A stretch of DNA of 64,000 bases, taken from NCBI RefSeq assembly GCF_005405005.1, contig NZ_BJDH01000008.1, positions 62,001 through 126,000 of the forward strand, in the 5' to 3' direction. Made by a program: the position numbers and the translations under genes. Source of the DNA: Lactiplantibacillus daoliensis (lineage in GTDB: Bacteria > Bacillota > Bacilli > Lactobacillales > Lactobacillaceae). The notes under the pieces are model-generated. The model was not told where the DNA came from. It ran no database searches and was given only the letters and a program-made list of their open reading frames with translations. Of the stretch, positions 6,325 through 48,182 are shown piece after piece; position 1 is the stretch's first letter, and every line of letters begins with the position of its first letter.

Positions 6325-6835
6325 GAAAGTTAAAAATTGCCAGTCTGCGCCACTACGTCAACAATTAGGTAATGAAAACTAGTTGATTACTGCCGCTTCC
6401 GGTTGTGGCCGACAACATGCGGACGAGGGACCGGTCCAAGACTTAGGAACGTCTTGAACCTCGCCCGGAAGCTTTGCCAAAAACGCAAATCTCCCGGACT
6501 GTCCGTGGTGTAAGGCCGGCAAAAGGAACGCCGGTCAAACGCCACCTGCACGTCCGATGCTATCGGCAACAGCCTCCAGCTAAGTCAGTAGTTGTTTTTT
6601 TGGATAGATTCGTTATTTACGAGTCAGTTAAAATTTGCGTGCGGTGTCGGCAAGATTAGTCGGCGTTCTTGGCTGACTAATCTCGCGGAGCAATTCAAAG
6701 ACGTGTTTTATCGGCTTGGAATTGAGGCACTAGACCGTACTTTGGCAAGCGCCTTCCCCCACAGAACACCGATTTTGACTGACGGAGCGCTAAATTTGGG
6801 TGAGTCCTACTGCAGACGTAACGGTTACTGATACT
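6325..6835. repeat. About 510-bp intergenic structured repeat, copy 1
   Basis: Near-identical in order and orientation to 40775-41285, with scattered substitutions and small indels. It consists of two folded modules. The left (about 6392-6590) has GGTCCAAGAC/GTCTTGAACC and CCGGC/GCCGG hairpins inside a larger dyad. The right (about 6640-6775) has CAATTCAAAG/CTTGGAATTG and the shared loop ACCGTACTTTGG at 6734-6745. The rest of the 6320-7020 gap holds no convincing gene; the 60-80-codon open frames inside it lack supporting features. Confidence 0.75.
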
Positions 6836-7020
6836 ACGACATTTGTGATGTTTTTGAGTCTTTCAACCTTTAGATTTTAACTAAAAACAGCATTTACAGA
6901 CTTGCATGCGTCCATAAATGCTGTTCATATTAACAATATCCTAAAATTGTCATACCACACGGTCAAACGACATAAAATTGATCGTTTGTCTCATTTACTA
7001 GCGATCTAAATGGTCAACTT

Positions 7021-7908
7021 TTAGTTATGTTGATAATGCCGTTTGCCCGTACGCTGACCATGATGTTCGAGCTTTGCTAACTTGGCGGCACCATTAATTG
7101 CGGTCGTCATCATCTTGTCGAATTGACGGTCTGACAACCATTTTCTAGCAGTCAGTGATAGACCAGAACCCATCCCAGCATGGTAGCGCGACTTCGGTTT
7201 CACATCATTGACCGCGCGAACCATCAATTTCGCAATGACACCGGGATTCGATGCAAACTGATCAAACAGTGATAAGATTGCACCAACTTTGATTGCTTGC
7301 TCATGATAAGCCGTCTCACCAGAAACTTCTAATAATTTTTTCTCCGCGATGCCGGCCCATTCGGTCTTAATACCACCGGGTTCAATGATCGACACATCGA
7401 TACCAAACGGGGCAACTTCCATCCGGATAGCGTCACTCATCCCTTCAATCGCATGTTTGGTGCCCATGTACCAAGCACTTAACGGTTGATAAATTTTGCC
7501 GCCAATTGACGATACGTTGATAATGCGACCGCGGTGTTGTGCTCGCATGATTGGCAATACCAGTTGGGTCAGACGCATTACACCGAAAACATTGACTTTA
7601 AATTGATATTCGCCTTCTGATAATGGCACGTCTTCCAACGCGCCATAAGAACCGTAACCGGCGTTATTAATCAAGACATCTAGCCGTTGTTGTTCAACTT
7701 GAATTGTTTTAACCGCTGCAATCAGCGTTTTTTCATCGGTCACATCAATTTTTAAAACGTGCACGCCGGCCGCAGCTAAGTCAGTCATTTTTTCAATCCG
7801 ACGAGCGGCGCCGTAAACAATGTTACCTTGTGCTTGAAGCTTAAGGGCGGTTGCCTTCCCAATTCCGGAAGACGCGCCTGTAATTAAGATTACCCGTGGT
7901 TTTGCCAT
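7021..7908 (-). CDS. Short-chain dehydrogenase/reductase (SDR)
   Basis: A 295-aa classical SDR oxidoreductase using NAD(P)H. The cofactor motif is TGASSGIG at the N-terminus, followed by NNAGYG and the catalytic Ser (NVSSIGG) with YMGTK (YxxxK). The C-terminal 50 residues extend beyond the catalytic fold. The substrate is unknown; this subfamily is commonly annotated only as 'oxidoreductase'. ATG at 7908 (MAKPRVILITG) is chosen over an ATG 18 bases upstream because GGAGG lies 8 bases before it and would itself be inside the longer reading. It stands alone, in the opposite direction to the next gene. Confidence 0.88.
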   Translation of the reverse strand: MAKPRVILITGASSGIGKATALKLQAQGNIVYGAARRIEKMTDLAAAGVHVLKIDVTDEKTLIAAVKTIQVEQQRLDVLINNAGYGSYGALEDVPLSEGEYQFKVNVFGVMRLTQLVLPIMRAQHRGRIINVSSIGGKIYQPLSAWYMGTKHAIEGMSDAIRMEVAPFGIDVSIIEPGGIKTEWAGIAEKKLLEVSGETAYHEQAIKVGAILSLFDQFASNPGVIAKLMVRAVNDVKPKSRYHAGMGSGLSLTARKWLSDRQFDKMMTTAINGAAKLAKLEHHGQRTGKRHYQHN

Positions 7909-8049
7909 TGTTTTTTCCTCCATCATATGGAACGTTTAATGTCATGCTACGGCAATCCCGTTCGAATTGCAATCGGATTCATAGCCAACACTATGCTAAA
8001 ATAAAAGCAACCATCGTGATGGCCTAGATTATCATTTGGAGGGATTCAC

Positions 8050-8952
8050 ATGCCAACTAAGATTATTATGGATACTGACCCAGGAATTGACGATGCAGCT
8101 GCGTTAACCATTGCACTCAATCATCCTGACTTTGATTTAGAATTAATTACCACGGTTGCTGGAAATGTTACCGTCGATAAAACGACTTTAAAATTAACAC
8201 GTTTCTTCAATAGTTAAGTTCCAGTCGCAGGTGGTGCGCCACAACCCTTGATCAAGCCGTTTGAAGATGCTGTTCGTATCCATGGTGTCTCAGGTATGCC
8301 GGGTTACGATTTTCCAACTGACTTAGCCGATCCATTGCCAGAAACGGCGGTCGAGGCTTTGCGTGATCACATTATGGCCGCCTCAAAACCAATCACGCTA
8401 GTTCCCACCGGTGCTTATACTAATATCGCTTTACTATTTAAGACTTATCCTGAAGTTAAAAAGCAGATCAAAGAGATTGTCGCTATGGGTGGCACCCTTG
8501 GCAGAGGCAACATGACAAGCGCCGCCGAATTCAACGTCTTTACCGACCCACATGCGGCCGAGATCATGTATCAATCTGGTGTGCCCATTACCATGGTTGG
8601 CTTGGATGTGACCATGAAAGCCTTGCTAACACCGGCAACCATGCAAAAGTTACCAACACTCGGACGCACCGGTACCATGCTTCACGCTTTATTCACGCAC
8701 TATGGTGATGGCGATAAAACTGGCCTACCGATGCATGACGTCAACACACTCTTCTACCTATTACATCCAGAAGCCTTCACCACTGAAAAAATGTGGATTG
8801 ACGTTCAAACTGAAGGTCCTGCCAATGGCGAAACTGTTGGCGATACCCGCGGTGCATACCACGATGGTAAAACCAATGCCACGGTTTGTGTCGACATTGA
8901 CGCTCATGCGTTTAATCAGTGGTTCTTAGAAACTGTCGCCGCAATCGGCTAG
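8050..8952 (+). pseudogene. Inosine/uridine-preferring nucleoside hydrolase broken by one in-frame stop
   Basis: Starting at ATG 8050, the frame reads [20 protein letters not shown], the Ca2+-binding DTDPGIDDA signature of ribonucleoside hydrolases. It stops at TAA 8215-8217 after residue 55 (...RFFNS). The same frame then continues without shift (VPVAGGAPQPLIKPF...) to 8952, for a full family length of about 300 aa. Downstream family features remain intact (VPTGAYTNIALLF, MGGTLGRGNMTSAAEFN, DPHAAEIMYQSGVP, MHDVNTLFYLL). One base substitution explains the break. A TTG at 8248 could restart translation, but that product would lack the metal site. GGAGGG precedes the original ATG. It is either a recent pseudogene or a sequencing error. 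Confidence 0.85.
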
Positions 8953-8968
8953 AACTTAGAATAATCAC

Positions 8969-8999
8969 GAGTCTGGGGAAAAGACCAGACTCTTTTTTT
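8969..8999 (+). terminator. Intrinsic terminator after the nucleoside hydrolase
   Basis: GAGTCTGG / CCAGACTC stem with an 8-base loop, followed by seven T. Confidence 0.9.
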
Positions 9000-9046
9000 G
9001 CCAAATATTTGTTATTAACCCGTGCAACAACAGTTAATGGCAAGCT

Positions 9047-9087
9047 AAAAAGCCGAACGATTGAGAGCCCCAATCATCCGGCTTTTT
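9047..9087 (-). terminator. Intrinsic terminator of the glycosyltransferase/MurF-like operon
   Basis: AAAAAGCCG / CGGCTTTTT outer arms with an inner GATTG/CAATC pair. On the minus strand it follows the last gene of the block (ending 9123) and ends in a T-run. It could also act as a second stop for the plus strand. Confidence 0.75.
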
Positions 9088-9122
9088 GGGCTATGCTAGG
9101 CTCATAACTTGCATAAACTTCC

Positions 9123-9317
9123 TTATTCCCAAGGATATTTGCCATTCTCATCCGTTTTTGTTTTCGCAACAAATTTTTTTGTTTGCTCATCCATTTCACG
9201 TCGAGATTTTTTTCGATTGCGGTGTCGAACTAGCATAACCAGCCCGCCCAGAACCAAATAAATAACCAAGCGCATCGCAGTTTTTAGGCTCGCGTAAATA
9301 GTCATTATAATCAACAT
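9123..9317 (-). CDS. Small single-span membrane protein, last gene of the adhesin-linked block
   Basis: 64 aa with one hydrophobic segment (about residues 12-30, RLVIYLVLGGLVMLV) followed by a strongly basic stretch (RHRNRKKSRR) and a charged cytoplasmic tail ending KYPWE. The positive-inside rule puts the tail in the cytoplasm. The ATG lies 3 bases after the stop of the MurF-like gene, with AGGAGAA inside that gene's end, so translation is coupled. I recognise no family. Position suggests a membrane anchor or accessory subunit for the enzymes encoded upstream. Confidence 0.7.
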   Translation of the reverse strand: MLIIMTIYASLKTAMRLVIYLVLGGLVMLVRHRNRKKSRREMDEQTKKFVAKTKTDENGKYPWE

Positions 9318-9320
9318 TAC

Positions 9321-12337: not shown

Positions 12338-12347
12338 CTGCTACCTC

Positions 12348-15720: not shown

Positions 15721-18700
15721 CTATTTTGTATGGTCCTGTTTCTTGAACCCGCGACCAAGCAATGCAGCCAAACTGCTAAGGGCTAATAAGACTGCACCAC
15801 CAACCGTAGCTGGGTTAGTGCTTGCTTCATTAGTCTGTGGCAAGTTGTAGGTTGAACCTAATTGGTTTTTATCATTGCCAGAGACATGATCCGTATTGGT
15901 GATGTGGTCGGCCATGCCATTAGCAGAGTCGGCGCTACCATTCCCAGTTGAACCATTGTTTTGATTACCGGAGTTCACAGTATTACTACCGTTTGACCCG
16001 TTGTTCTGATCACCGGAATTGCTACCGTTTGACCCGTTGTTTTGGTCACCGGAATTGCTACCGTTTGACCCGTTATTTTGGTCACCGGAATTGCTACCGT
16101 TTGACCCGTTATTTTGGTCACCAGTATTGATATTGTCACCATCACCATCGGTGTCGGTATCGGTATCCGTATCGGTATCCGTATCTGTGTCGGTATCGGT
16201 ATCGGTATCCGTATCCGTATCCGTATCCGTATCGGTATCCGTGTCAGTATCGGTGTCAGTATCAGTGTCAGTATCGGTATCCGTGTCGGTATCTGTATCG
16301 GTATCGGTATCGGTATCGGTATCCGTGTCGGTATCAGTATCAGTATCGGTATCAGTATCTGTGTCGGTATCCGTATCGGTATCCGTATCAGTATCTGTGT
16401 CGGTATCAGTATCGGTATCAGTATCCGTATCAGTATCTGAGTCCGTATCCGTATCGGTATCGGTATCGGTATCCGTGTCGGTATCGGTATCAGTATCTGA
16501 GTCGGTATCGGTATCAGTATCCGTATCCGTATCCGTGTCCGTATCAGTATCAGTATCCGTATCCGTATCGGTATCTGTGTCGGTATTGGTATCGGTATCG
16601 GTATCCGTATCCGTATCGGTATCAGCATCCGCATCCGTATCAGTATCTGATTGATCACCGGCTGCTAAGGAAGCATAATAACCGGCTTTATCGGCAGCAC
16701 TTGAAGCTTTCTTCTTAGCTGATGAAGCAGCTGAGGCAGCTTCTTTGGCTGCTTGCGCGTGACTCGAAGCGGCCGAATTATCATTGGCTGCTTCAGCAGA
16801 ATCTGCATTTGCAGCGGCTGTGCTTGCAGCAGCTTCGGCAGAGTTAGCTTCACTCGCAGCTTCGGCGGCATCACTCGCAGCATTGGCTGCTTCAGCAGCA
16901 TACGATGCTGAGCTAGAGTTTTGATTCGTGTATTGACCAGCGACATCTGCATATGAGCTCGCAATTTTATCATAAGAGTCAGCTGCGTTGGCATGATCTA
17001 CAGCCTCACTTGCTGCAGAACTAGCTGTAGATGTTTGAATTGAATCAACAGTTAGGTAAGCACGTCCTAAGGTAACAGTCTGTGTGCTAGTCTTGCCATC
17101 TGTCGTAACACTGGTATTTACAACCAAGTAATAATAACCAGCTTGTCCTGCTGTAATATTGTTAAGGTTTAAATTAGCACCAGTTTGACCATCAAGTGCG
17201 GTGCCTTCACCATCAGCAGTAGCTGAGTAATACCATTGATAAGTTGCATCACTATCAGAACTGGTTGTATTACCTTCTGGGACCCAAGTTAAGTCATCAC
17301 CAGTAGAAACTTCTTTATCGCTTAAACCATTACCAACAGTGATCGTCTTTGATGAAGAATAAGTTGAACCATCCGCATTAGTAATCGTAACTGTGATAGT
17401 TGTTGTCCCAGCACCTACAGCAGTAACTAGACCAGTATCATCAACAGTCGCAACGTTAGGATTGCTGCTAGTCCAAGTTATTTCACCAGTCGCATTACCT
17501 GGGTTAGTGGTTGCCGTATATTGACCGGTAACGTCACTATCATTTGAGTTATCAGTTGGTAACACAAGGTAATCATTCCCATTAACCGAAATATCAGTTG
17601 CAGGAATATCACTATCATAAACATCAACTTCGGCTAAATTACTACCCCAGTTATAGAAAAGATAAGCGCCAAGATTGCCATATTGTGTGTAAGCTTGGAA
17701 GACCATCGTTCCTGTAAAGTCACTCGCAATTTGTGCAGTCAAAGTACTAGTGTTTGATGCGGCACGATTGCTCCCAGTAGCTGATTGACTAGTTAAATAG
17801 CCAGCAGTTACTGCATCGGCAACTGACATCCACGTTCCGTTGACTTGTACATACCAACTCGTTTTACTACCAGTATTAATAGCACCCAAACCAGTTGCAG
17901 AAGCAACAGATAAGGTAATTGTATTGCCAGAAGTAGTTGAGGTGACTGCAGCCGGCTGAGTTGTAAAGCCACCGGAAACAACAATCCCAAAAATACTGCT
18001 TGCATCGCCTTGTTCATCATATTTTGGATTGGATAGGTCATTAGAATAAGCAACTGCGCTGGTAGCAAGATCTTTACCAACCGCTGCGGCTGAATTGGCT
18101 ACTGCAGCGTATGAAGTAGCCGCATCCGTTGCCGTACTTGCAAGATTGACATATGAACTCGCATCTGCAAAGTTACCAGCGGCAACCGCACTTGACGCTT
18201 GTGTCATATAACTAGCAGCTTGTGAAGCTGAAGCATTTGCTTCGGCAGCGGCACTGGATGCATCCTTAGCGTAGTCTTGCGTTGCGGACACATATGATGA
18301 CCCAAGTGCGGTATTAGTGCCCGTTGTATTTGCGATTGAATCAGCTGTTGATCCTGCAATCGCAGCGGCTGACGACGCATCCGACGCAGCGTTCAACGCA
18401 TCTTGAGCGACCGAATTATAATAATCAGTCTCAGTATTCACGATTGTTGAAGTTAACGCTGCAGCTGCATTTGAAGCAGCGTTTAATTGTTCAGTGGCCA
18501 AGGTCAGCCCAAGTGACGCATAACTTTGTTGACGAGCGGCATTGGCATAATCGCCAGTTGCCGCATATGAAGCCGCTAAACTAGAGGCGTTAGCAGCATA
18601 AGCAGCGTATGAGCTGGCAGCGTAGGCTGCTGAGCTAGCAGCTGATGAATAACCATCAGTACCAGCATTGAAGTTCGCGCCAGAAATATAGGCGTTCGCG

Positions 18701-21315
18701 GCATCATTAGCATGTGAAGATGCCAGTGAAGCCTGGTTTTTGGCATTCTCAGCAGCGGCTGAAGCGGCATTGGCATAACTGGAGGCTAAATAATCCCCAG
18801 CTTCAGTCCCACCACCTTCGTTAACGGCTTGATTTAATGATTCAGTAATCGCACTTAATGCAGCTGAAGCGGCGGTACTGCCTAAAGCAGCATATGAACT
18901 GGCTGCGGCGGCATAACTCGCGGCATTAGCGGCGTATGAACTAGCAGTAACGTAATCACCAGTAGTTTCATAACCAGAAACTTGGTCATGCGCAGCTTGG
19001 GCTGCACTTGCGGCGCCAGAAGCTAGTTGTGCATATGAACTGGCATTGCTATAAGCTGAGTTTGCTTGGCTTGCATAGTAACTAGCCAGCGAACCACTCA
19101 GATTGGCACTTGAACTAGCTGCTGAAATAGCACTGCTAGCCATGTCGGCATTCGAACTAGCGCCTGAAGCATAACTTCCTGCCAAGTCTGCTGAGCTGCT
19201 AGCTTGTTCATCGTAAGAACCTTTTGGATCAGTGACTACGATCGTAATAACATTAGAAGAAGCCGTATAATTAGTAGATTGTACTAAAGTCGACTTTTTA
19301 CCTGAAACATAGGCTTGGAAATAATAAGTCCCGGCTTCAGTCATCATATAAGAAAGATAAGCACTGCCATCACTTTCAACTTTGGTCCAAGTTTTACCAT
19401 CAGTTGACATATACCAAACATACGTTGAAGTACTAATCGAATAGTTTGGTGCTAAAATACCACTACCATTGACTGCGGTAACCGTTGCAGCTAATTTGGC
19501 ATTACTACCGACTTTAACCGTTTCAGTACTGGTGGTTAAAGTTGAACTTGCGCCAGAATTAGCGTCTTGTTCGCCAGAAACGTCGTTACTAAATTCTTTA
19601 GCTAACGCAGCGTTGGTTTGTGCTGTGGCAGCATAGCTTGCGGCATCTGCTGCGGCATTGGCAGCCACCCGAGCTAACGAGTTGGCTTCTTTTGGTGAAG
19701 CAGCAATTGCAGCAGCTTCGGTTGCTGAGCTGGCAACGGCATAAGCTGATGAAGCGGCATCCGCAGCAGCATTAGCTAATGACGCATAGGTTGACGCCTG
19801 TGTCCCATTATAAGTAGCAGCATCACTGGCAGCAGTCGTCGCATCAGTAACAGATGAGCTGGCTGCGTTAGTATCATTGGCAGCTGATGAAGCAGCATCT
19901 GAAACCGCAACAGAATTTGCATAAGTCGCGGAAGACTGCGCAGTTTCATTAGCAGCAGCAACCGCAGAATTATTATTAATCGCGGTATTCATATTATCAG
20001 TTGCTACTGAATAAGCGGTGCTACCGGCAGTGTAATCATTAGCAGTAGCAGCAGCAATTGCGGCTGCGTAGGCTGATGAAGCCGCCGTGGCAGCGGCTAC
20101 GGCCGTTGAAGCTGCTGTTGATGCAGTAACTGCTGCGCCACTTGCAACGGCATAAGCTGAAGAAACATTGCCATTGTTTTTATCATATTGCATCGCAAGA
20201 TAAGCACTGTTAGCTGCCTCAGTTGCGGCATTAGCAGCACTCGTTGCAGCATTAGCAGCTGAACTGGCAGCGGCATAAGTACTGCTTGCCAAACTTACCA
20301 CGCCAGAAGTTGCCGCCGTTTTTGCGACGTCTGTTGCAGATGAAGCAACCGTTGCATATGAACTAGCAGCCGCTGCAGCAGAAACCGCAGCTGATGAAGC
20401 CGTTGCATAGTCAATTGCATTACCAGCAACTGAACCAACCCCGGCATCATTAGCGTTCAGATACATATTAGCTAAACTATTGTAATGATTTGCTAATGCG
20501 GCACTATTCAAAGCAGCTTGATAGGCACTCGAAGCAGCGCTTAACGCATTTTGTGTCTCTAAGGTATTTACTAAGTTCGCATATGAGCTAGCTTCAGAGG
20601 CATATGATGATGCCAAAGTTGCTGACGAGGCTGCGGCATTAGCAGCAGTACTGTCAGTGTTGGCATTTGAAGTCGCGGCATATGCATCAATCGCTGAGTT
20701 GGTGGCAGCGGTCGTGGCATCTGTTGATGTCACAACGTCAGCAAGCCCCTTTAAACTGTTTTGGGCAGTTTTTGTGTCTGAAGTTGCGGTATCGTCTGCA
20801 ACCGAACTATTTGCAGCGGAACTACTATCAGTTACACTGCTTGAAACTGTGCTACTTGCAGCTGAACTACTGTCAGCCGCAGTACTTGATACCGTACTAC
20901 TTGCGGCAGAGCTACTATCTGTAGCGACACTTGATGCGGTGCTGCTTGCAGCAGAACTACTATTAGTTGCAGTACTCGACGCCGTACTACTTGCAGCGGA
21001 GCTACTTGCCGCACTGCTTGAAGCATAACTTTCAACAGATGAACTACCGGCAGTGTCAGCCGCTAACATTGCAGCATTTTCGTAATCACTCACCTCGGTG
21101 CTAGCAGCACTATCCGTACTACTCCCCTCGGTACTTGAAGTTGTCACTGTACTTGCGGTATCGGCTTGTGCGGTGGTGTCAGCATGCGAAACGAGCATGC
21201 CACCAGTCAAGGCAAAGGATGCCATAGTCATAAAGACCCAGGTTCGACCCACTTTAAACATTTTGTAACGCAGTTTAGGGTCGCCCTTAAACGCCTTGTT
21301 TTGTAAAGATTTCAC
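15721..21315 (-). CDS. Very large Ser/Ala-rich LPXTG adhesin with KxYKxGKxW signal and (Asp-Thr)n stalk
   Basis: 1864 aa. N-terminus: KxYKxGKxW-type signal (YKMFKVGRTWVFM) and hydrophobic core ending VSHADT. Then about 600 residues of Ala/Ser-rich helical repeats (ASSYA, AASSAA, ANAAS units), an Ig-like insert near 620-690, more Ala/Ser repeats, and Ig-like domains including a Big_2-like one (TWTSSNPNVATVDDTGLVTAVGAG). A further Ala/Ser segment leads to about 170 residues of Asp-Thr dipeptides, 12-residue SGDQNNGSNGSN repeats, and LPQTNE with membrane anchor and basic tail. It should be sortase-anchored with a long acidic stalk. The Ser-rich regions are plausible glycan acceptors for the glycosyltransferases encoded immediately downstream. 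KxYKxGKxW signals are often linked to the accessory SecA2/SecY2 route, but no such genes are in the window. Confidence 0.9.
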   Translation of the reverse strand: MKSLQNKAFKGDPKLRYKMFKVGRTWVFMTMASFALTGGMLVSHADTTAQADTASTVTTSSTEGSSTDSAASTEVSDYENAAMLAADTAGSSSVESYASSSAASSSAASSTASSTATNSSSAASSTASSVATDSSSAASSTVSSTAADSSSAASSTVSSSVTDSSSAANSSVADDTATSDTKTAQNSLKGLADVVTSTDATTAATNSAIDAYAATSNANTDSTAANAAASSATLASSYASEASSYANLVNTLETQNALSAASSAYQAALNSAALANHYNSLANMYLNANDAGVGSVAGNAIDYATASSAAVSAAAAASSYATVASSATDVAKTAATSGVVSLASSTYAAASSAANAATSAANAATEAANSAYLAMQYDKNNGNVSSAYAVASGAAVTASTAASTAVAAATAASSAYAAAIAAATANDYTAGSTAYSVATDNMNTAINNNSAVAAANETAQSSATYANSVAVSDAASSAANDTNAASSSVTDATTAASDAATYNGTQASTYASLANAAADAASSAYAVASSATEAAAIAASPKEANSLARVAANAAADAASYAATAQTNAALAKEFSNDVSGEQDANSGASSTLTTSTETVKVGSNAKLAATVTAVNGSGILAPNYSISTSTYVWYMSTDGKTWTKVESDGSAYLSYMMTEAGTYYFQAYVSGKKSTLVQSTNYTASSNVITIVVTDPKGSYDEQASSSADLAGSYASGASSNADMASSAISAASSSANLSGSLASYYASQANSAYSNASSYAQLASGAASAAQAAHDQVSGYETTGDYVTASSYAANAASYAAAASSYAALGSTAASAALSAITESLNQAVNEGGGTEAGDYLASSYANAASAAAENAKNQASLASSHANDAANAYISGANFNAGTDGYSSAASSAAYAASSYAAYAANASSLAASYAATGDYANAARQQSYASLGLTLATEQLNAASNAAAALTSTIVNTETDYYNSVAQDALNAASDASSAAAIAGSTADSIANTTGTNTALGSSYVSATQDYAKDASSAAAEANASASQAASYMTQASSAVAAGNFADASSYVNLASTATDAATSYAAVANSAAAVGKDLATSAVAYSNDLSNPKYDEQGDASSIFGIVVSGGFTTQPAAVTSTTSGNTITLSVASATGLGAINTGSKTSWYVQVNGTWMSVADAVTAGYLTSQSATGSNRAASNTSTLTAQIASDFTGTMVFQAYTQYGNLGAYLFYNWGSNLAEVDVYDSDIPATDISVNGNDYLVLPTDNSNDSDVTGQYTATTNPGNATGEITWTSSNPNVATVDDTGLVTAVGAGTTTITVTITNADGSTYSSSKTITVGNGLSDKEVSTGDDLTWVPEGNTTSSDSDATYQWYYSATADGEGTALDGQTGANLNLNNITAGQAGYYYLVVNTSVTTDGKTSTQTVTLGRAYLTVDSIQTSTASSAASEAVDHANAADSYDKIASSYADVAGQYTNQNSSSASYAAEAANAASDAAEAASEANSAEAAASTAAANADSAEAANDNSAASSHAQAAKEAASAASSAKKKASSAADKAGYYASLAAGDQSDTDTDADADTDTDTDTDTDTNTDTDTDTDTDTDTDTDTDTDTDTDTDTDSDTDTDTDTDTDTDTDTDTDSDTDTDTDTDTDTDTDTDTDTDTDTDTDTDTDTDTDTDTDTDTDTDTDTDTDTDTDTDTDTDTDTDTDTDTDTDTDTDTDTDTDTDTDTDTDTDTDTDGDGDNINTGDQNNGSNGSNSGDQNNGSNGSNSGDQNNGSNGSNSGDQNNGSNGSNTVNSGNQNNGSTGNGSADSANGMADHITNTDHVSGNDKNQLGSTYNLPQTNEASTNPATVGGAVLLALSSLAALLGRGFKKQDHTK
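16000..16130 (-). repeat. 36-bp tandem repeat encoding SGDQNNGSNGSN
   Basis: Three full 36-bp units begin at 16000, 16036 and 16072, with a partial fourth from 16108. The units are nearly identical at DNA level and add 12 residues each to the adhesin stalk, so length can change by recombination without a frame shift. Confidence 0.85.
16141..16655 (-). repeat. Hexanucleotide tract encoding about 85 Asp-Thr dipeptides
   Basis: On the plus strand it reads as repeated (G/C/A)GTATC units, i.e. GAYACN hexamers on the coding strand. Rare Ser or Ala replacements appear (SDTD, DADAD). Synonymous third bases vary, so the tract is not a perfect microsatellite. The repeat length (6 bp) always keeps the frame. 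The result is a long, acidic, probably extended wall-spanning stalk like the Ser-Asp region of staphylococcal Clf/Sdr proteins. Confidence 0.9.
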
Positions 21316-22627: not shown

Positions 22628-25600
22628 ATGACACAACCAACTAACACCAAGGTTCATTACAAGATGTACAAAAAAGGCCGTTTCTGGGTTTTTGCCGGAT
22701 TGGCTGCTTTTACTTGGCAAATTAACACGTTAAACGCTCACGCTGATACTACTACCGAAACACCAATCGTAACGACTAGTCAGGTTAGCACCCAAAGCTC
22801 TGAAACCACACCATTAGCCACGAATACAAGTGTAACAACTGAAGCGACCGAAAATGACACCGCTAACAATGATACGAAAGCTGTCACTAGCGATACCGAA
22901 GTCACTTCGGATATGACGCCTACTACTGATAATGGCTCAGACGACAAGAAAACAACCGAAGTGACTGAAGATAGTTCGACAACTATAACCAATGATAGTA
23001 ACCAGGACACAAATACAACTAGTGACAATCAGACTGACAAGAGCACCACGACCACTGATCAAGTTGAAACTAATGACGGTCAGGTCAATAATAGCGACAC
23101 TGATGTTGACAATAGTAACGGCGAACAAACACCGGCACCTGACGAAACCAACACCACTAATCCAGATGAAACCACTAACGGTGATGATCAGACCATATTA
23201 AATGATGACAACACAACCGTTTCTGACCAGTCCGATACTGACACCAATGTGGCTAAAGATGACTCACTTGAAACTGTTCCAAACACCAGTGAAGACACCC
23301 TCAAAGTCGCTACACCAGAATCCGTTACCGTTCGGGCAGCGGCAACGGATGATATTGCTAGCGGGACTTATGGTGACAGTGCTTGGCGTATCGACAGTAA
23401 CGGCGTCTTGCATATCAGTGGTGGAACTTTCGTCAATACTAATGGCAAAAATCCTTGGGCAGCCTACGCCAACAAAATTAAGGAAATCAACTTTGAAGAC
23501 ACTGTTAATGGCGCATCAGATTCTTCTGGTCTCTTTAGAGATTTAACTAATTTGACGACAATTACTAATGCAAAAAACTTTAATACTAGTAATGTCACTA
23601 CTATGCAATCAATGTTTGCAAACGACAGTGCCCTAACATCGTTGGACATCTCACAATGGAACACGAGTCAAGTCAAAAATATGGCATCAATGTTTTATCA
23701 CGTTAGTTCACTTAAAACATTGGACGTCAGTAATTGGAACACTAGCAAGGTCACTGATACTGGTGCAATGTTCAATGGAACCAGTTCACTAACTAGTTTG
23801 GATCTTAGTAAATGGGATACCAGTAAAGTAACCAATATGGCGGGAATGTTTATGGGTGATACTGCCCTAGTATCTGTCAGTTTCGCTAATTGGAACACTA
23901 GTAACGTGACAAGCATGCGCAGTATGTTCTCTGGTGACACTGCCTTGACCACGATTGATGTCAGCCAATGGGATACCGGTAAGGTGACTGATATGGGCTT
24001 CATGTTTGCTAACAACACCAGCCTAGTAACAGTGAATGTTGGTAACTGGGACACTGGTCAAGTTCAGAATATGAATAACATGTTCGCTTATGATCGCCTC
24101 ATCACTTCATTAGATGTTGGTAAATGGAACACCAGTAGCGTGACTAATATGGGCTTCATGTTCTACAATACCAAGCTAAAAACGTTAGATGTTTCTAATT
24201 GGGATACGTCTCAAGTCACGATTATGGCCAGCATGTTTACCGGTAATACCATGTTAACCTCATTGGATGTTAGCCATTGGGATACAAGTAATGTGACGAT
24301 CATGAATTATATGTTCTTTGGAAATAACTCCTTAACCAATCTAGACGTTTCTAATTGGGACACTGGTCAAGTTACCGACATGAGCTATATGTTCTATACG
24401 ACTAACGCCCTGCAGTATTTGGACGTTTCGAAATGGAACACTAGCAACGTCACCAACATGAGTTTCATGTTCCAAAGTGCTTGGGTTCTCAGCGGCTTAG
24501 ATGTTTCTAACTGGGACACCAGTAAAGTCACCGACATGCAATACATGTTTGCTTACGCTGAAAAATTAACCAATTTGGACACCGGTAACTGGGATACGAG
24601 TAAAGTCACCAACATGAGTTACATGTTCAATGGCGCTATTGGACTCACCAACGTCAATGTGGCTAACTGGGATACCAGCAGTGTTACTGATATGAACCAC
24701 ATGTTCTGGGGCGCAAATGTCCTCAATAATCTGGACGTGGCTAACTGGGATACCGGTAACGTCACTGACATGAGCTTCATGTTCAATAGCACTTGGATAC
24801 TTGATGGACTAGATGTGGCTAACTGGAACACTAGCAATGTCACCAACATGCAGAACATGTTTGCCTACATGGAAAAATTGCAAAGTTTAGATACGAGCAA
24901 ATGGGACACTAGTAAAGTCACTAATATGAGTGGTATGTTCGTCGGTGATTTCATGTTAACAACATTAGATGTCTCAAATTGGAACACTTCAAATGTCGAA
25001 ACCATGTATGATATGTTTGATGGCGACTCAGCCTTAACTGCCCTAGATGTTTCAAAATGGGACACTAGCAAAGTGACCGATATGCGCTTCATGTTCTGGG
25101 GTAACAAAGGTCTGACCGTCTTAGACTTCTCTAACTGGGATATGTCGAAAGTCACCACAATGACCGACATGCTCACCAATACTAATTTACAAAAGATCAT
25201 CCTAGGCAGTAAGAATAACTGGAGTACCGATACTGGTCTTCCAGAAATTACAGCCGACGATACCTACACTGGTAACTGGATTGATAGTAACGGTGACAAG
25301 CTAACTTCTAGCGATTTGTTGGCTAATAACGCAACTGGTTCTTATATCCGGGAATTGGTGGACAGTCAAACCAGCTTGGACACAAACGATGGCAACCTAG
25401 TGGCTGGACCAAACACCAACTGGAACGTCAGTGATGGCTTTAGCGGTACCGACTACAACGGCAATCAGCTCACAATTGACGATGTCACAGTTGGCGGTGA
25501 TACGGTTGATACCAATGCTCCTGGTGTTTACAAAGTCACCTACACTTACACGGACGCAACTGGGAAAACCATTACAAAGACTGCAACGATTACGGTGACT

Positions 25601-26752
25601 GCAAGTACTGCATCCGTCGACAGCAATGATCAAACTGTTTCATTAGGTGATGGTTGGACTGCCGAAGATAACTTTGCAGGTAGTGATACGGACGGTTCCA
25701 GCGTTGATTTCAAAGATGTCACGGTCAGTGGCGATACGGTTGACGCTAACACGCCAGGCACTTATAACGTCACTTACACCTTCACCGATGCTGCCGGTAA
25801 TGTCGTGACCAAGACAGTTAAAGTGATTGTCTACGGGATTACGCTAAATGAAACCAACAAAGAAATCTCAACGACTAGCAACTGGGACCCAGCAGACAAC
25901 GTTAAGAAAGCTACTGATGGCGCGGGTAACGACCTTGCAGGTAGTGATTTAGCAATTACGATTAAGGACAGTAACGGTAACGTGGTCACTGACCTCACCA
26001 AGACCGGAACTTATACCGTAACCTATACCTTCATGACGCGCGCCGGTGAAACGTACGCCACAACCGCAACGATTGTCGTTTCCAACAAATCAAGCCTCGA
26101 TGCTAATGATTCGACAATTACGGCCGGTGACACTTGGAATCCAGCGGACAACTTCGTTAGTGCGACGGATGAAAACGGCGATGCGCTAGACTTTAGCCAA
26201 ATTACCGTTGACGGTGATGTCGATACCAATACCCCTGGCACCTACAAAGTCACTTACACTTATACCGATGCCAATGGCGACAGTATCAGTAAAGTAATCA
26301 CTGTCACGGTTACTGCCAAAGATACTGGCGATGGTGATGGCGACACGGATACCGGTGATAACAACGGTAACGGTGGCACGGACACTGACAACAATAACGG
26401 TGACGGCGATACTAATACCGGGGACAACAATGGTAGTGGTAACACCGATGGTAACGGTGACAGCATCAACACTGGCAATACCAACAATGGTAACAATAAC
26501 AGTAACGGCCAAGCCGATACGATTGTCACTACACCAACTAGTACTGCACCACAAGCTAACGCCAATGAACAAGTTAGCCTCAAGGACGCCGCTAAAAAAG
26601 TTGCTGCTCAAGATCAAAACTCATTGGACAAATTACCACAAACTGATGAAAGTTCCACACGGCACATCGCCGCTGCTGGAGCCGTACTCTTAGCACTTAG
26701 TGGTCTCGCCCTTGGCTTAGGCAAAGCCTTAATCAAGCGGCGTCAAAACTAA
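22628..26752 (+). CDS. BspA-like (DUF285) LPXTG surface adhesin with KxYKxGKxW signal
   Basis: 1374 aa. Signal: YKMYKKGRFWVFAG with cleavage near NAHADT. Residues 45-235 are Thr/Asp/Asn-rich low complexity. About residues 240-900 hold roughly 22 tandem 24-25-residue DUF285 repeats with the core LDVSNWDTSKVTNMSYMF, which form a leucine-rich-repeat-like solenoid as in BspA proteins. Four Ig-like (Big_3-type) domains follow (about 905-1240), then a Gly/Asn/Asp linker and LPQTDE, hydrophobic anchor and KRRQN tail. It is sortase-anchored and probably binds host or matrix ligands; the ligand is unknown. AAGGGGATTTAATC precedes the ATG. The Ig-like domains match those of the adhesin at the left window edge. 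Confidence 0.9.
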   Translation: MTQPTNTKVHYKMYKKGRFWVFAGLAAFTWQINTLNAHADTTTETPIVTTSQVSTQSSETTPLATNTSVTTEATENDTANNDTKAVTSDTEVTSDMTPTTDNGSDDKKTTEVTEDSSTTITNDSNQDTNTTSDNQTDKSTTTTDQVETNDGQVNNSDTDVDNSNGEQTPAPDETNTTNPDETTNGDDQTILNDDNTTVSDQSDTDTNVAKDDSLETVPNTSEDTLKVATPESVTVRAAATDDIASGTYGDSAWRIDSNGVLHISGGTFVNTNGKNPWAAYANKIKEINFEDTVNGASDSSGLFRDLTNLTTITNAKNFNTSNVTTMQSMFANDSALTSLDISQWNTSQVKNMASMFYHVSSLKTLDVSNWNTSKVTDTGAMFNGTSSLTSLDLSKWDTSKVTNMAGMFMGDTALVSVSFANWNTSNVTSMRSMFSGDTALTTIDVSQWDTGKVTDMGFMFANNTSLVTVNVGNWDTGQVQNMNNMFAYDRLITSLDVGKWNTSSVTNMGFMFYNTKLKTLDVSNWDTSQVTIMASMFTGNTMLTSLDVSHWDTSNVTIMNYMFFGNNSLTNLDVSNWDTGQVTDMSYMFYTTNALQYLDVSKWNTSNVTNMSFMFQSAWVLSGLDVSNWDTSKVTDMQYMFAYAEKLTNLDTGNWDTSKVTNMSYMFNGAIGLTNVNVANWDTSSVTDMNHMFWGANVLNNLDVANWDTGNVTDMSFMFNSTWILDGLDVANWNTSNVTNMQNMFAYMEKLQSLDTSKWDTSKVTNMSGMFVGDFMLTTLDVSNWNTSNVETMYDMFDGDSALTALDVSKWDTSKVTDMRFMFWGNKGLTVLDFSNWDMSKVTTMTDMLTNTNLQKIILGSKNNWSTDTGLPEITADDTYTGNWIDSNGDKLTSSDLLANNATGSYIRELVDSQTSLDTNDGNLVAGPNTNWNVSDGFSGTDYNGNQLTIDDVTVGGDTVDTNAPGVYKVTYTYTDATGKTITKTATITVTASTASVDSNDQTVSLGDGWTAEDNFAGSDTDGSSVDFKDVTVSGDTVDANTPGTYNVTYTFTDAAGNVVTKTVKVIVYGITLNETNKEISTTSNWDPADNVKKATDGAGNDLAGSDLAITIKDSNGNVVTDLTKTGTYTVTYTFMTRAGETYATTATIVVSNKSSLDANDSTITAGDTWNPADNFVSATDENGDALDFSQITVDGDVDTNTPGTYKVTYTYTDANGDSISKVITVTVTAKDTGDGDGDTDTGDNNGNGGTDTDNNNGDGDTNTGDNNGSGNTDGNGDSINTGNTNNGNNNSNGQADTIVTTPTSTAPQANANEQVSLKDAAKKVAAQDQNSLDKLPQTDESSTRHIAAAGAVLLALSGLALGLGKALIKRRQN

Positions 26753-29736: not shown

Positions 29737-29766
29737 TACAATCAACAACACTGGATATTACTTTAG

Positions 29767-30106
29767 TTTGCCACTCTGGTTGGTCCAAAGTTGGCTGGAA
29801 CGTGGTGGCCACGTTTGTGAGCCAAAGGACGGTCTCACAAGCCGGGCTTTATCTAAGGCGCAAAAACAGCGCCAAAGATAAACGACACCACTGAGCCAAT
29901 TTTGGCCCGCCCGACGTTAGATAAGTTTCCTGTTTTAGAAACTAAATCCAGCCGAGAGGTTCGCCCCTAAAATGCTCAGCCATGAAATTGGTCTTAGTAC
30001 GGGTGGTTTTTCCCGGACTTAGACCAAGGCCAGTTTTAAAGACCGCCTTTTGGCTTTAAAATGGCCCATGGCGTTCCAGCATTTTAGGGGCGAACCGGCA
30101 GGCGAA
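29767..30106. repeat. Compound structured repeat, modules A (inverted) and B
   Basis: Module A occupies about 29767-29925 on the minus strand and module B about 29945-30106 on the plus strand. A has hairpins TTTATCTAAGGCGC/GCGCCAAAGATAAA and TTGTGAG/CTCACAA around ACCGTCCTTTGG (29822-29833, minus). B has outer arms AAAATGCT/AGCATTTT and TTTTAAAG/CTTTAAAA around ACCGCCTTTTGG (30042-30053). The linker contains CCCGACGTT. The same A-B compound occurs inverted at 47838-48182 and partly at 38845-39077. No gene is seen in this gap. Confidence 0.8.
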
Positions 30107-30153
30107 ACGTCACACCAGTACCCAGTGCCATCAACTGTAAGGAGGAATTTTTG

Positions 30154-35027: not shown

Positions 35028-35175
35028 TCCGGACTTTCCTGTGGGGGGAACGGTCACAGCCATAGTACGGTCTGTGGCCTCGCCTCAAAGCCGAAAATAC
35101 ACGTCTTTAAGGTCGCCCTGTGATCTAAGTCAGCATAAAGCGCTGACTAACATCACCGTCACGGGAAAGTCCGAA
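35028..35175 (-). repeat. Structured intergenic element, C-type, single module
   Basis: Bounded by GGACTTTCC / GGAAAGTCC. On the minus strand it aligns with the right module of the 510-bp repeats: a TTAAAGACGTGTATTTTCGG segment, then CACAG/CTGTG arms around ACCGTACTATGG (35060-35071), then TTCCCCCCACAG. It lies in the long 3' region of the DUF1304 gene. Confidence 0.7.
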
Positions 35176-35228
35176 TAACTTGCTACACTCAAATTGAAAT
35201 GATTATTATTTGAGTTCCAAAAACAATT

Positions 35229-35425
35229 CCAGCCGCAAGTTGTCAGTGACGAAACCTGCTATGTAAGTGGCTTTAGAACAGCGATTTTCTATTCTTAGGC
35301 CACCGACGACTTTTAAAATTTGCGGTTTGGGTAAAGCTTAAAAGCGAGGTTTCAGACGTCCTATGGCTGGAACCGGTCGCCATAGCTGGTGAAGTCACTG
35401 ACAACCGCAAGCGAAAATTTTCCAG
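35229..35425 (+). repeat. Structured intergenic element, D-type
   Basis: Outer arms TTGTCAGTGAC / GTCACTGACAA (35240-35250 and 35394-35404). An inner hairpin GGTTTCAG / CTGGAACC (one G-T pair) encloses ACGTCCTATGG at 35356-35366, a one-base-shorter version of the family loop. No gene is seen between 34873 and 35440. Confidence 0.65.
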
Positions 35426-35440
35426 TTAATTAGTCATTGT

Positions 35441-38716: not shown

Positions 38717-38844
38717 CTCGACATCCCCTTAAAATTTTAAACCGTATTTATCAGTTGAGTCTTTGATTGGTGTCAGCGCTTACTAACACGTGACTTTAGT
38801 TTAGAATTATTTTAAAGAGGTGTCAACGCCTGGACTGTGCTTTT

Positions 38845-39077
38845 TCGCCTACCGGTCGGGGTCTAAATTAGCTATTTGCATTGCTAGTTAATAATCAGAA
38901 TTAGCACTTTAAATTTAACAATTATTTAACGACGGACGGGTTAGAATTGGCTCAGTGGTGACATTTATCTTAGGCGGTGGTCCCACCTTAGATAAAGCCC
39001 GGCTTCTGAGACCGCACTTTGGCTCAGAAGCGCGGCCACCACGTTCCAGCTAATTCTGACCCAACTAAAAGTGACAA
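38845..39077 (+). repeat. Structured element, module A with a decayed module B
   Basis: Module A (about 38938-39077) matches 48035-48182: TTGGCTCAGTGGTG outer arm, a TTTATCTTAGG.../...CCTTAGATAAA hairpin, CTTCTGAG/CTCAGAAG around ACCGCACTTTGG (39011-39022), and CCACCACGTTCCAGC. The left edge (38845, CGCCTACCGGTCGGGGTCTAAA) matches the outer edge of module B at 47838, but the B core is replaced by AT-rich sequence. No gene is seen in this gap. Confidence 0.75.
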
Positions 39078-39085
39078 ACAACCAC

Positions 39086-40760: not shown

Positions 40761-40774
40761 GTTTCCAACTAAAG

Positions 40775-41285
40775 GTTGTAAGTTGAAAATTTTGTATCTG
40801 CGCTACTACGTCAACAATCGGACGATGAGAAATAATCGATTACTGCCGCTTCCGGTTGTTGCTGATAACATGCGGACGAGGGACCGGTTCAAGCCTTAGG
40901 AACGTCTTGAACCTCGCCCGGAAGCTTTGCAAAAACCGCAAATCTCCCGAACCGTCCGTGGTGTAAGGCCGGCAAAAATGCCGGTCAAACGCCACCTGCA
41001 CATCCGATACTATCGGCAACAACCTCCAACTAAGTCAGTAGTTCTTTTTTGGATAAATCTGTTATTTACGCTTAGCGGAGTCAGTCGAAATCGGTGTGCA
41101 GTGTCGGCAAGATTAGGCGGCGTTCTTGGCTGACTAATTTTGCGGGGCACTTCAAAGACGTGATTTTCCGGCTTTGAAGTGAGGCGCCAGACCGCACTTT
41201 GGCTGGCGTTGTCCCCCACAGCACACCGATTTTGACTGACGGAGCGCTATATTTGAATGAGTCCTACTTTAGACGTAATTGCTAC
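40775..41285. repeat. About 510-bp intergenic structured repeat, copy 2
   Basis: Direct copy of 6325-6835. The left module has TTGTTGCTGATA/TATCGGCAACAA, CTTCCGG/CCGGAAG and GGTTCAAG/CTTGAACC. The right module has GGTGTGCAGTG/CACAGCACACC outer arms, perfect CACTTCAAAG/CTTTGAAGTG, and CGCCAG/CTGGCG around ACCGCACTTTGG (41191-41202). Copy 1 carries CAATTC/GAATTG where this has CACTTC/GAAGTG, a compensated pair change. Confidence 0.78.
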
Positions 41286-41319
41286 GTTTGTGAGCCTTTT
41301 GCCCTTTTGTTACCAAGAC

Positions 41320-41370: not shown

Positions 41371-41443
41371 CGTGATGCCAACTTGCTAAACAAGCTTGTT
41401 GGTATTGGGTTGAGGTTGCGATAGGGCAATCCACCTTTCTAAA

Positions 41444-45488: not shown

Positions 45489-45756
45489 TCTCCTCCATTC
45501 AGTTTATTACCAAGCAAGCACTACTCACTTGATACCCAAAAGTTACCACGCCTGTACTTTATAAGATTAAGACAAGGTCTCATTCGTTAAGCTTACTAAC
45601 CGGCTGTAACCCCGGAAAACTAAGGATTTCATAAAATTAGTAATTATTTAAATTCAATCTAAGCACTGTGAGCTAGTATTCAATCATCGTCATTAATAAA
45701 AGCATTCATGGTTCAATTATCACGGTATTAATAGTCATAACTAACATTGGACCAGC
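45489..45756. other. Intergenic gap without a gene
   Basis: AT-rich sequence upstream of the frameshifted adhesin; presumably holds its promoter on the minus strand, but no clear -35/-10 pair or other feature stands out. Confidence 0.5.
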
Positions 45757-45806
45757 AAAAAAAAGACTAGCACAACGTCACTAAACTGTGACCTCGTACC
45801 AGTCTT
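45757..45806 (-). terminator. Intrinsic terminator after amtB
   Basis: AAGACT...AGTCTT outer arms and GTCAC/GTGAC inner arms, followed by eight T on the minus strand. Confidence 0.75.
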
Positions 45807-45817
45807 CTTAAACATCA

Positions 45818-47134: not shown

Positions 47135-47162
47135 AATAACAACTCCCATCCGTACCATTTGA

Positions 47163-47179
47163 TGTAAGAAATTATAACA
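47163..47179. promoter_or_regulatory. GlnR/TnrA-type box 1 of amtB, overlapping the -10
   Basis: TGTAA-N7-TAACA on the plus strand (TGTTA-N7-TTACA on the minus), matching TGTNAN7TNACA. The minus-strand TGTTATAAT inside it is an extended -10, so binding would block amtB transcription. Confidence 0.65.
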
Positions 47180-47277
47180 TTAATTATGAGGTTTGCTCAT
47201 TATTTTTTAATTTTTTGCCTTTTTATATGTTTTTAAAGCCTGCCCATATGTTAATTTAGTGACTTTCACTAATTAAA

Positions 47278-47294
47278 TGTTACGTTTTATCACA
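47278..47294. promoter_or_regulatory. GlnR/TnrA-type box 2, upstream of amtB
   Basis: TGTTA-N7-TCACA, again matching TGTNAN7TNACA, 115 bp upstream of box 1. Paired boxes fit cooperative GlnR repression, and it could also touch the divergent small gene. Confidence 0.55.
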
Positions 47295-47481
47295 TATAGC
47301 AATCAACAAATAATTATCGAAAAAAATAAATTACGCAATATTGCGGTAACTGTCTCTGACTTAAGATTCCACTAAAACAAAGGGATTTCTCGAATTTTCT
47401 TGGCAAAATTAGTATAACCATGGTAGAATTTTACTAAACAGAACGTTTAATGCGTCAACTAATTATGGTGGGATGATTTTT

Positions 47482-47748
47482 ATGCAACAAAAGCTGACAA
47501 GTCGAGGACGATTCGCTTTAATCGTTATTTTAACCATTATCAGTGTCGGGACGGCCCTCTTAGGTAAATGGGGCCGCACCGCAAGTGTCATCCTGATTGG
47601 ATTCGCACTTGCAAGCTTAACTAGCGGTTGTCTACGGTTCTGCAAGGCCCGTGGACTCCAACAAGGCAGTAGCATGTTATTTTCACTCGTGATTGCCGCG
47701 GGTTACGTGCTCGTTATTCTAGGTAGCTATGGCTATTTCCGTGGCTAA
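47482..47748 (+). CDS. Small membrane protein
   Basis: 88 aa (MQQKLTSRGRFALIVIL...), with three hydrophobic segments and a basic first turn; it ends SYGYFRG. ATG 47482 is spaced 9 bases from GGTGGG; the ATG at 47473 abuts it. No family recognised. It is divergent from amtB and shares its 340-bp upstream region, so nitrogen-linked expression is possible. Confidence 0.7.
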   Translation: MQQKLTSRGRFALIVILTIISVGTALLGKWGRTASVILIGFALASLTSGCLRFCKARGLQQGSSMLFSLVIAAGYVLVILGSYGYFRG

Positions 47749-47770
47749 TGATCAGTTATTTTAGACAACT

Positions 47771-47817
47771 AAAATGACCTGCGATGACTCGCTTGAGTCG
47801 TCACAGGTCATTTTTTT
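47771..47817. terminator. Intrinsic terminator after the small membrane protein
   Basis: AAAATGACCTG / CAGGTCATTTTTTT arms with inner GACTC/GAGTC. Confidence 0.9.
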
Positions 47818-47837
47818 CAGTGGTTACATTATTGATT

Positions 47838-48182
47838 TCCGCCTGCCGGTCGGCATCTAAAAGGCTGGAACGCCGTGGACCATTTTAAAGCCAAAAGGCG
47901 GTCTTTAAAACTGGCCTTGTCCTAAGTCCGGAAAACCACCGTACTAAGGACAACTTCACGGCTGAGCCTTTTAGGTGCCAACCTCTCGACTAAATAGTTA
48001 TGACGCAAATTCCAAATAAACGGCTATTCAACGTCGGGTGAGTCAGAATTGGCTCAGTGGTGTTATTTATCTTAGTTGCTGGTTTTGCGACTTAGATAAA
48101 GCCCGGCTTACGAGACCGCACTTTGGCTCGGAAACGCGGCTACCACGTTCCAGCCAATTCTGATTCACCCAGAGTGGCAAAA
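47838..48182. repeat. Compound structured repeat, modules B (inverted) and A
   Basis: Reverse-complement arrangement of 29767-30106. B (47838-47993, minus) has TTTTAAAG/CTTTAAAA around ACCGCCTTTTGG (47891-47902, minus). A (48030-48182, plus) has a TTTATCTTAGTTGC/GCGACTTAGATAAA hairpin and CGAG/CTCG around ACCGCACTTTGG (48115-48126). The linker AACGTCGGG is shared. No gene is seen in this gap. Confidence 0.8.

Follow-up and report, generated by a model that had tools for sequence, protein, structure and literature searches.

Covarying structured modules paired head to head in MITE-like units of Lactiplantibacillus, and their possible role as RNA

Background

Does a folded repeat that recurs between genes fold only in order to move, or does its fold have a job once a copy has settled? 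The question is raised by a 64,000-nucleotide stretch of the Lactiplantibacillus daoliensis genome (contig NZ_BJDH01000008.1, positions 62,001 to 126,000; hereafter the window), in which nine hairpin cores with a shared loop and covarying arms had been recognised from the sequence. BOX, NEMIS and ERIC are mobile structured repeats long suspected of regulating genes; to our knowledge, evidence for selection keeping settled copies of such repeats is scarce. With an elaborate fold, strong covariation and hosts that include common food and probiotic species amenable to culture and manipulation, the question of a MITE turning into a functional RNA element can be put directly to the test.

Six units in the window

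All nine cores are real and lie at the positions and on the strands first given for them, but they are to be read as parts of six larger, usually two-module units (Table 1). The loop alone is little proof, since in the window the 12-base core with at most two mismatches has 19 matches against 13.7 expected, a number that 8 of 100 shuffles reach. Genome-wide, the 16-base core AGACCGYMCTTTGGCT, also with at most two mismatches, occurs at 67 + 55 = 122 places and the reversed pattern at 4 + 0. Covariance model R1, whose training alignment includes class I modules of the window itself, adds the minus-strand class II partners of units 1 and 5. The copy at 6734 is a decayed module of this second class, and the lone copy at 39011 has the look of a deletion derivative in which only the base of the partner survives. 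Its unit is missing from the matching place in one congener (G010, locus L165), with no clean target duplication. Unit 1 was delimited by aligning it with 27 further class II copies from this genome, ends included. When unit 2 is folded as RNA its ends close and both modules fold; around it, predicted promoters are fewer than in shuffles and predicted terminators are within the shuffle range. As originally described, the units are intergenic, judged by the open-frame caller of this analysis.

Table 1. Units and modules in the window (R1 scores in bits)
Feature	Position	Strand	Description
Unit 1, class II	6319..6873		termini ACTAAAG... / ...CTTTAG; two head-to-head modules, the right one decayed
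Unit 1, left module	6387..6588	-	R1 31.9, E 9.9e-10; absent from the earlier list
Unit 1, core loop of decayed right module	6734..6745	+	core match; no R1 report at E <= 0.01
Unit 2, class I	29749..30127		inverted ends CACTGG... / ...CCAGTG enclose two head-to-head modules
Unit 2, module A	29764..29925	-	R1 155.1; copy part of the model alignment
Unit 2, module B	29943..30110	+	R1 148.9; copy part of the model alignment
Unit 3, class II variant	35058..35420		ends approximate
Unit 3, module	35072-35164	-	R1 30.5; partial match
Unit 3, module	35224-35420	+	R1 42.0
Unit 4, lone class I module	38841..39080		apparent base of lost partner at left
Unit 4, module	38921-39080	+	R1 142.5; copy part of the model alignment
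Unit 5, class II	40768..41310		left end located, right end approximate
Unit 5, module	40840-41038	-	R1 35.1; absent from the earlier list
Unit 5, module	41067-41254	+	R1 32.1
Unit 6, class I	47834..48184		two modules
Unit 6, module	47834-47998	-	R1 152.7; in the model alignment
Unit 6, module	48023-48184	+	R1 150.9; in the model alignment
Unit-end sequence of the family, for reference			ACGCNTNGTGC

Architecture and covariation of the modules

In a full unit, two homologous modules are set head to head. Among modules found by regular expression less than 400 bp apart, the orientation is -+ in 44 cases, -- in two, ++ in two and +- in none. With this layout each strand has one sense module, whichever way the unit lies. 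The module, about 165 nt in size, folds three- or four-way; besides an outer stem it has a conserved CA/GTTCC internal loop and either two or three hairpins, with a bulged AGAC...GGCT core in the final one. The neighbouring hairpin and the outer stem that had been noticed around the cores were both confirmed.

The covariation claimed for the core arms held up well. From 150 non-redundant modules, 75 of the two-hairpin type were retained after thinning by hand (set A1), and RNAalifold assigns them 46 pairs, 37 of which show compensated double changes. Pairing cells amount to 97.3% against 73.9% after shuffling, a level reached by 0 of 500 shuffles, and fall to 31-47% when slid by 1-3 columns; the covariation score is 0.622 versus 0.179 shuffled. 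A second set, drawn from five genomes fetched separately, has 65 rows, 63 of them distinct; aligned by the model and sharing no 80-base stretch with loci L001-L156, it scores 0.625 versus 0.191. The shuffle tests of both sets show the significant covariation that marks a structured RNA class. Within an 83-copy subfamily the module columns are mostly near invariant, and it is the linker and three base pairs beside the core that vary; seven of its ten imperfect tip triplets owe their imperfection to nothing but a G.U pair. Conservation extends to unpaired internal-loop motifs.

Terminal repeats, target duplications and empty sites

The Lactiplantibacillus units are MITE-like, as the original prediction had allowed, showing terminal repeats, filled and empty sites, and duplications of 7-9 bp at the target. 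The terminal inverted repeat (TIR) ACGC[AT]T[TG]GTGC[TG]AGTT, with at most three substitutions, bounds 61 units among the fetched loci. The class II terminal repeat is ACTAAAGGTTGAAAG, from end alignments that omit L001, L018 and the window unit at 35058 and, at the left end, keep 21 of 25. Exact adjacent repeats flank 26 of the 61 TIR-bounded units (7 bp in seven, 8 bp in 13, 9 bp in six) and are absent from 35; 1000 shuffles gave a mean of 0.45 and a maximum of 3. When one mismatch and a one-base shift per junction are allowed, 41 of 61 have a duplication, against a shuffled mean of 1.50. Filled and empty sites are seen in L062 versus L084, where the empty site is clean, and for class II in L036 versus L041. 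The module-bearing TIR-bounded units examined contain no credible gene, a transposase gene included. Across Lactobacillaceae, complete units measure about 400-1,080 bp, with shorter derivatives down to about 200 bp, and decayed copies occur. In ten Levilactobacillus units tested, inverted similarity is mostly the module's own base; only L135 has a longer outer repeat, and no duplication is found there.

Search for the mover

A Y1/RAYT transposase was rejected as the mover because the presence of elements does not track Y1 genes: eight element-bearing congeners (G003, G004, G005, G008, G013, G016, G018 and G020) have no PF01797 match, and G001 and G002 have such matches and no module. Module pairs with long spacing yielded no clear gene-bearing parent, and no intact insertion sequence with the unit's ends was found among the TIR matches listed. 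TIR matches of G019, G003 and G005 were extended 3 kb inward, and the types of eight larger open frames close to TIRs were determined. Six correspond to ordinary host genes, unrelated genes or fragments of either; at L262 an IS30-type transposase adjoins a lone TIR, and at L274 broken pieces of an IS3-type transposase lie between two TIRs, with neither module nor target duplication. A 3.4 kb TIR pair in G060, considered as one parent, resolved into two distinct units that have two open frames between them. In these searches neither a functional transposase nor an autonomous copy turned up.

Constraint on settled copies

Copies occupying the same site in two species were compared in six module pairs from three species pairs, namely five of nine initial pairs and one found by the model. 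Three comparisons of one three-hairpin copy were left out for their few stem differences, as was L095/L133, whose orthology is doubtful (25 of 167 positions differ, the core triplet included). Substitutions number 17/73 in terminal loops, 13/546 in stems, 4/115 in internal loops and junctions, and 23/250 outside. Five of the 13 stem substitutions left or entered a non-pair; two of the eight that keep pairing are both sides of a single compensated double change, which arose after insertion. By these figures the fold is kept intact even in settled copies, which suggests that it has a job. Together with covariation in two sets, the substitution pattern supports the earlier claim that the fold is under selection.

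The strands are not equivalent. G.U pairs outnumber A.C pairs by 99 to 31 (24 versus 7 column pairs, p=0.003) in a sum that excludes one loop-closing pair (A1) and two loosely aligned core pairs (A3), and by 95 to 21 in the second set, an excess which indicates that the fold of one strand is selected in place. As RNA, 62 of 75 modules fold more stably in the sense than in the complementary strand. With DNA parameters the sense strand is the more stable in 74 of 75, and folding of a single strand of DNA is also consistent with the asymmetry.

What the fold may do

Our preferred reading, to which we assign a probability of roughly 0.58, is that these are MITEs, a family of non-autonomous transposable units in Lactobacillaceae mobilised in trans, and that they carry an orientation-independent structured module whose likeliest mode of action is as RNA within read-through transcripts. 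The units would be moved through their terminal repeats by a transposase encoded elsewhere, and the sense-strand fold would work as RNA within transcripts reading through the unit. The bulged AGAC..GGCT hairpin and the CA/GTTCC internal loop may offer a folded landmark to a protein or ribonuclease, which, once bound, could fix the end of the transcript or its decay; the head-to-head layout would make this action independent of the direction of insertion. Only tentatively do we go further and propose an undescribed structured RNA motif, spread by MITEs as head-to-head pairs, whose copies the host may keep as genome-wide, orientation-independent transcript-processing sites, with fast-changing terminal loops around a fixed junction core.

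Were the units ordinary MITEs, the fold would serve transposition only, its covariation would be inherited from successive active sources and settled copies would be neutral. Terminal repeats, target duplications, intergenic placement and decayed copies are all in keeping with this, as are the low R1 scores of the window's class II copies; however, in same-site copies the stems and internal loops are kept and the terminal loops evolve roughly ten times as fast, and the near invariance of most module columns in the 83-copy subfamily, beside a varying linker and three varying core-side base pairs, also speaks against an explanation that we consider unlikely. It is improbable, too, that a recombinase or HUH enzyme recognises folded DNA strands, as for REPINs and integron attC sites. 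The elements do not follow Y1 transposases, and Y1 enzymes are not known to produce terminal repeats with 7-9 bp duplications, even though the inverted pairing of modules across a variable linker is reminiscent of REPINs, the hairpins are bulged and the DNA fold favours the sense strand; on the same grounds the units are not REP- or RAYT-like in the strict sense, one of the identities first proposed. We give very little credence to mutational homogenisation, by which template switching in hairpins would perfect the arms and produce covariation without selection. The pairs flanking the hairpin tip do change fastest, and terminal loops change faster than the DNA just beyond the outer stem, yet such correction is blind to strand and would not account for the G.U excess, for tip triplets made imperfect by just a G.U pair or for the conservation of unpaired internal-loop motifs. 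Taken as a whole, the earlier interpretation is partly supported.

Relation to known repeats

BOX of Streptococcus pneumoniae and Bcr1 of Bacillus cereus are high-copy intergenic repeats with an RNA-like fold and no known internal transposase; the present units share these traits and probably differ from both in sequence and fold. REPINs, inverted pairs of short hairpin modules with a linker and many copies per genome, are similar in these respects, but here the modules are about 165 nt long with junctions, and there are TIRs, target duplications and no Y1 link. The REPIN/RAYT hallmark is a GTAG-type tag with a short palindrome; the invariant module columns hold no such tag, and the module is not a short palindrome. 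NEMIS/Correia and ERIC are simple TIR hairpins and are not known to have a junction fold like the elaborate one described here.

Where PMC3116915 treats them, REPINs are RAYT-mobilised REP pairs. The relevant passages of PMC10969869 name BOX elements and present NEMIS/Correia and ERIC as MITEs with transcripts that RNase III cleaves or that expose sites for RNase E, a function of the kind proposed for our units. They also describe QMITE2 of Coxiella burnetii, which like these units has TIRs, 7-9 bp direct repeats, intergenic placement and a transcript predicted to fold; relative to that description, the units here differ by having two head-to-head modules with conserved internal loops and three- or four-way folds that covary, by the constraint on copies in place and by a complete size of 400-1,080 bp. 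Keyword searching of the papers available found no description of the element, sequence-string searching of papers returned unrelated papers only, and passages of PMC2527527 do not name it. Rfam has 0 matches in the window and, in five loci at E <= 1, gave only a TPP riboswitch that lies apart from the modules, together with miRNA models scoring below threshold.

Distribution and genomic context

In a survey scoring at most 48 candidates per genome, the covariance model matched 23 of 60 genomes (own included), among them 18 of 20 congeners. The 16-base core with one mismatch occurs in 17 of 60 (own genome counted), and four of these have it at one place only; the patchy presence within the genus that this exact-core search had implied was dropped as mostly divergence, given the model's reach. 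Across the order, 142 of 148 sampled genomes have no match to the model. Motif copies number from dozens to more than 100 per genome in Lactiplantibacillus and Levilactobacillus; certain other genera and a second family have copies as well.

Copies are present on L. plantarum plasmids. A type unit of the L. plantarum group matches 26 plasmid records and no phage, and a 47-base unit end matches three Lactiplantibacillus plasmids, with chance-level matches elsewhere; unit 2 of the window finds nothing in plasmids or phages. The pair pPLAN563/pAWA2013_3 was rejected as an empty site, pPLAN563 showing internal deletions only, and a second plasmid search gave none usable. None of 20 plasmid records listed has a feature under the match in a plasmid gene table that is incomplete, and such unannotated copies point to an annotation gap. 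With respect to neighbouring genes, class I has no clear preference for 3' ends, and class II leans towards them (36 gene 3' ends versus 16 gene 5' ends).

Results

Copies and anatomy of the module

The nine cores of the original prediction, which belong to six units, are present in the window sequence. Searched by itself with mismatches, the core gives a window count not above chance; the extended core AGACCGYMCTTTGGCT matches at 122 sites across the genome (2.63 Mb) compared with 4 for the reversed pattern. With a covariance model based on 75 class I modules, five of them from the window, ten modules are found in the window. The predicted list of copies was right in its cores and incomplete in its partners: two class II modules had been overlooked. 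In the same organism's genome at least 101 modules are found at E ≤ 0.01, with 150 of 628 candidates scored.

The class I module measures about 165 nt. A basal motif of approximately GCCGWGAGG / CCGGYAGGC, which differs among types, is accompanied by an outer stem of free sequence and by an internal loop, conserved as CA facing GTTCC, that is enclosed by GGCT/AGCC. Beyond this loop a six-pair stem leads to two hairpins, the final one being AGAC[CGNNCTTTG]GGCT with a bulged A. Class II modules and some Levilactobacillus copies have an additional hairpin of the AGAC..GGCT type. Because the class I model detects class II modules, the two classes are homologous. Neighboring modules found by regular expression less than 400 bp apart are almost always head-to-head (44 -+, 2 --, 2 ++ and 0 +-).

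Single modules also occur. One of the paired modules of locus L002 is absent from the matching place in L. nangangensis (L120), where the flanks align gap-free. Plasmids pAWA2013_3 and pPLAN563 (L232/L235) have near-identical stretches that differ by two deletions, roughly 279 and 160 bp long, within one unit. The second takes out the greater part of the right module, and both deletion junctions show a short overlap. Internal deletions of this kind may be the origin of single modules.

Positions of individual features
Sequence	Positions	Strand	Feature
Window	15721-21315	-	very long open frame, 1864 aa
Window	22628-26752	+	very long open frame, 1374 aa
Window	38841-39080		unit 4, single class I module
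L002	951-1106		module absent from L120
L274	141-2488		about 2.35 kb between two terminal inverted repeats

Selection on the fold of one strand

The predicted covariation of the arms is borne out. Across the 75 aligned class I modules (A1), double changes occur in 37 of 46 pairs and 97.3 % of 3429 cells (one base pair position in one row) pair; the covariation score is 0.622 compared with 0.179 after shuffling and at most 0.091 when slid. A second alignment, fitted to the model and drawn from five separately obtained genomes (A3; 65 rows, 63 distinct, from G005, G031, G034, G035 and G058), has 95.0 % of cells paired and a score of 0.625 versus 0.191 shuffled. G035 may be one of the named Levilactobacillus species, and no 80-base stretch common to the A3 rows and loci L001-L156 was found. 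Within an 83-copy subfamily most module columns are near-invariant, and variation falls on two loop bases and the three base pairs adjoining the core; these triplets are complementary in 73 of the 83 copies and imperfect through a G.U pair alone in 7 of the remaining 10.

Cells with G.U outnumber those with A.C in A1 (99 versus 31; 24 versus 7 column pairs, p = 0.003, indicative only as the sequences are related) and in A3 (95 versus 21). Of the two strands, the sense strand folds more stably in 62 of 75 modules with RNA parameters and in 74 of 75 with DNA parameters. Selection acts on the fold of one strand, and both RNA and single-stranded DNA fit.

Constraint on settled copies

Six pairs of modules at the same site, two for each of the species pairs L. 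yonginensis/tongjiangensis, L. paucivorans/humaensis and L. songbeiensis/dongliensis, were compared by structural position. Substitutions occur at 17 of 73 positions in terminal loops, 13 of 546 in stems, 4 of 115 that are internal or at junctions, and 23 of 250 lying outside the outer stem (loops versus stems, Fisher p ~1e-9 with sites taken as independent). Pairing is retained in eight of the 13 stem changes, two of them being both sides of one compensated double change; of the other five, three are in one copy. This contrast shows that settled copies are under constraint, beyond the lineage of active ones. Gene conversion is disfavored, since same-site copies mostly retain their own tip triplets in the pairs compared (L095/L133 excepted). 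Terminal loops changed at 23 % of sites compared with 9 % for DNA just outside the outer stem, and there is a hint of raised mutation or diversifying change at the hairpin tips.

Owing to the head-to-head layout, a read-through transcript crossing a unit in either direction would include one module in sense. We consider a folded RNA landmark within such transcripts the likeliest role, as the constraint in place and the strand-specific fold would both favor it. It would resemble the roles reported for Correia elements, where RNase III is involved, and for ERIC, where RNase E is (PMC10969869).

Mobility and novelty

Units in L. songbeiensis and L. dongliensis measure about 400 bp and terminate in ACGCTTGGTGCTAGTTG; the 16-base end is found at 198 and 192 places in these two genomes (reversed control 4 and 2) and at 7 places in the genome of L. 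daoliensis (control 3). Congeners G003, G005, G015 and G019, presumed to be of the L. plantarum group partly from plasmid matches, carry units of about 600-1,080 bp in which the end is the related ACGCATTGTGCTAGTTAATTTG. Exact adjacent direct repeats flank 26 of 61 units bounded by terminal inverted repeats (7 bp, n = 7; 8 bp, n = 13; 9 bp, n = 6) compared with 0.45 on average, and never more than 3, in shuffled controls. Relative to filled site L062, empty site L084 lacks the unit together with one ACTTATTTC copy; the class II unit of L036 is missing from the matching place in L. nangangensis (L041), and unit 4 is missing in congener G010 (L165) with no clean duplication.

A single transposase was seen between two such ends, a broken IS3-type one in two separate pieces in L274 (genome G005); this stretch, devoid of module and target duplication, could be either a relative of the mover, now broken, or a nested insertion. 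Plasmid records match in 26 cases (19 Lactiplantibacillus, 7 Ligilactobacillus), the Ligilactobacillus salivarius plasmids through a stretch about 91 % identical that spans one module; phage records gave no match.

We file the repeats with the MITE-like structured repeats because the Lactiplantibacillus units show terminal repeats and target duplications. They differ from such repeats in their paired complex modules together with constraint in place. The module matched no Rfam family, and a literature search with partial coverage of subscription papers found no description, an earlier one being possible.

Distribution and gene context

Related genomes have copies. With L. daoliensis itself counted, the model (E ≤ 1e-4, up to 48 candidates scored per genome) matches at least 23 of 60 genomes; it matches at least 18 of 20 congeners, unlike congeners G001 and G002 (about 2.6 Mb each), where it found no module. 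Carriers among the matches listed by pattern scan include Lactiplantibacillus songbeiensis, dongliensis, nangangensis and pingfangensis, and Levilactobacillus brevis, namurensis and others. Placement relative to genes was judged with our own open-frame caller. Of 231 units, 42 overlap frames of 80-139 aa that are taken as spurious; all others are either intergenic or at the edge of a locus. Class I units are mostly between tandem genes, like the background; class II units in the L. daoliensis genome are in 12 convergent, 8 tandem and 2 divergent settings; 4 more are overlapped by a short frame and 2 are at a locus edge.

Across an order-wide sample (E ≤ 1e-6, up to 19 candidates scored) at least 6 of 148 genomes match, own included, three of them from another family (f2). 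Distant modules in G058, a genome from another family of the order, are mutually very similar (L173, L179, L185, L191 and L197) and retain the AGAC..GGCT hairpin and a TTTCC internal loop.
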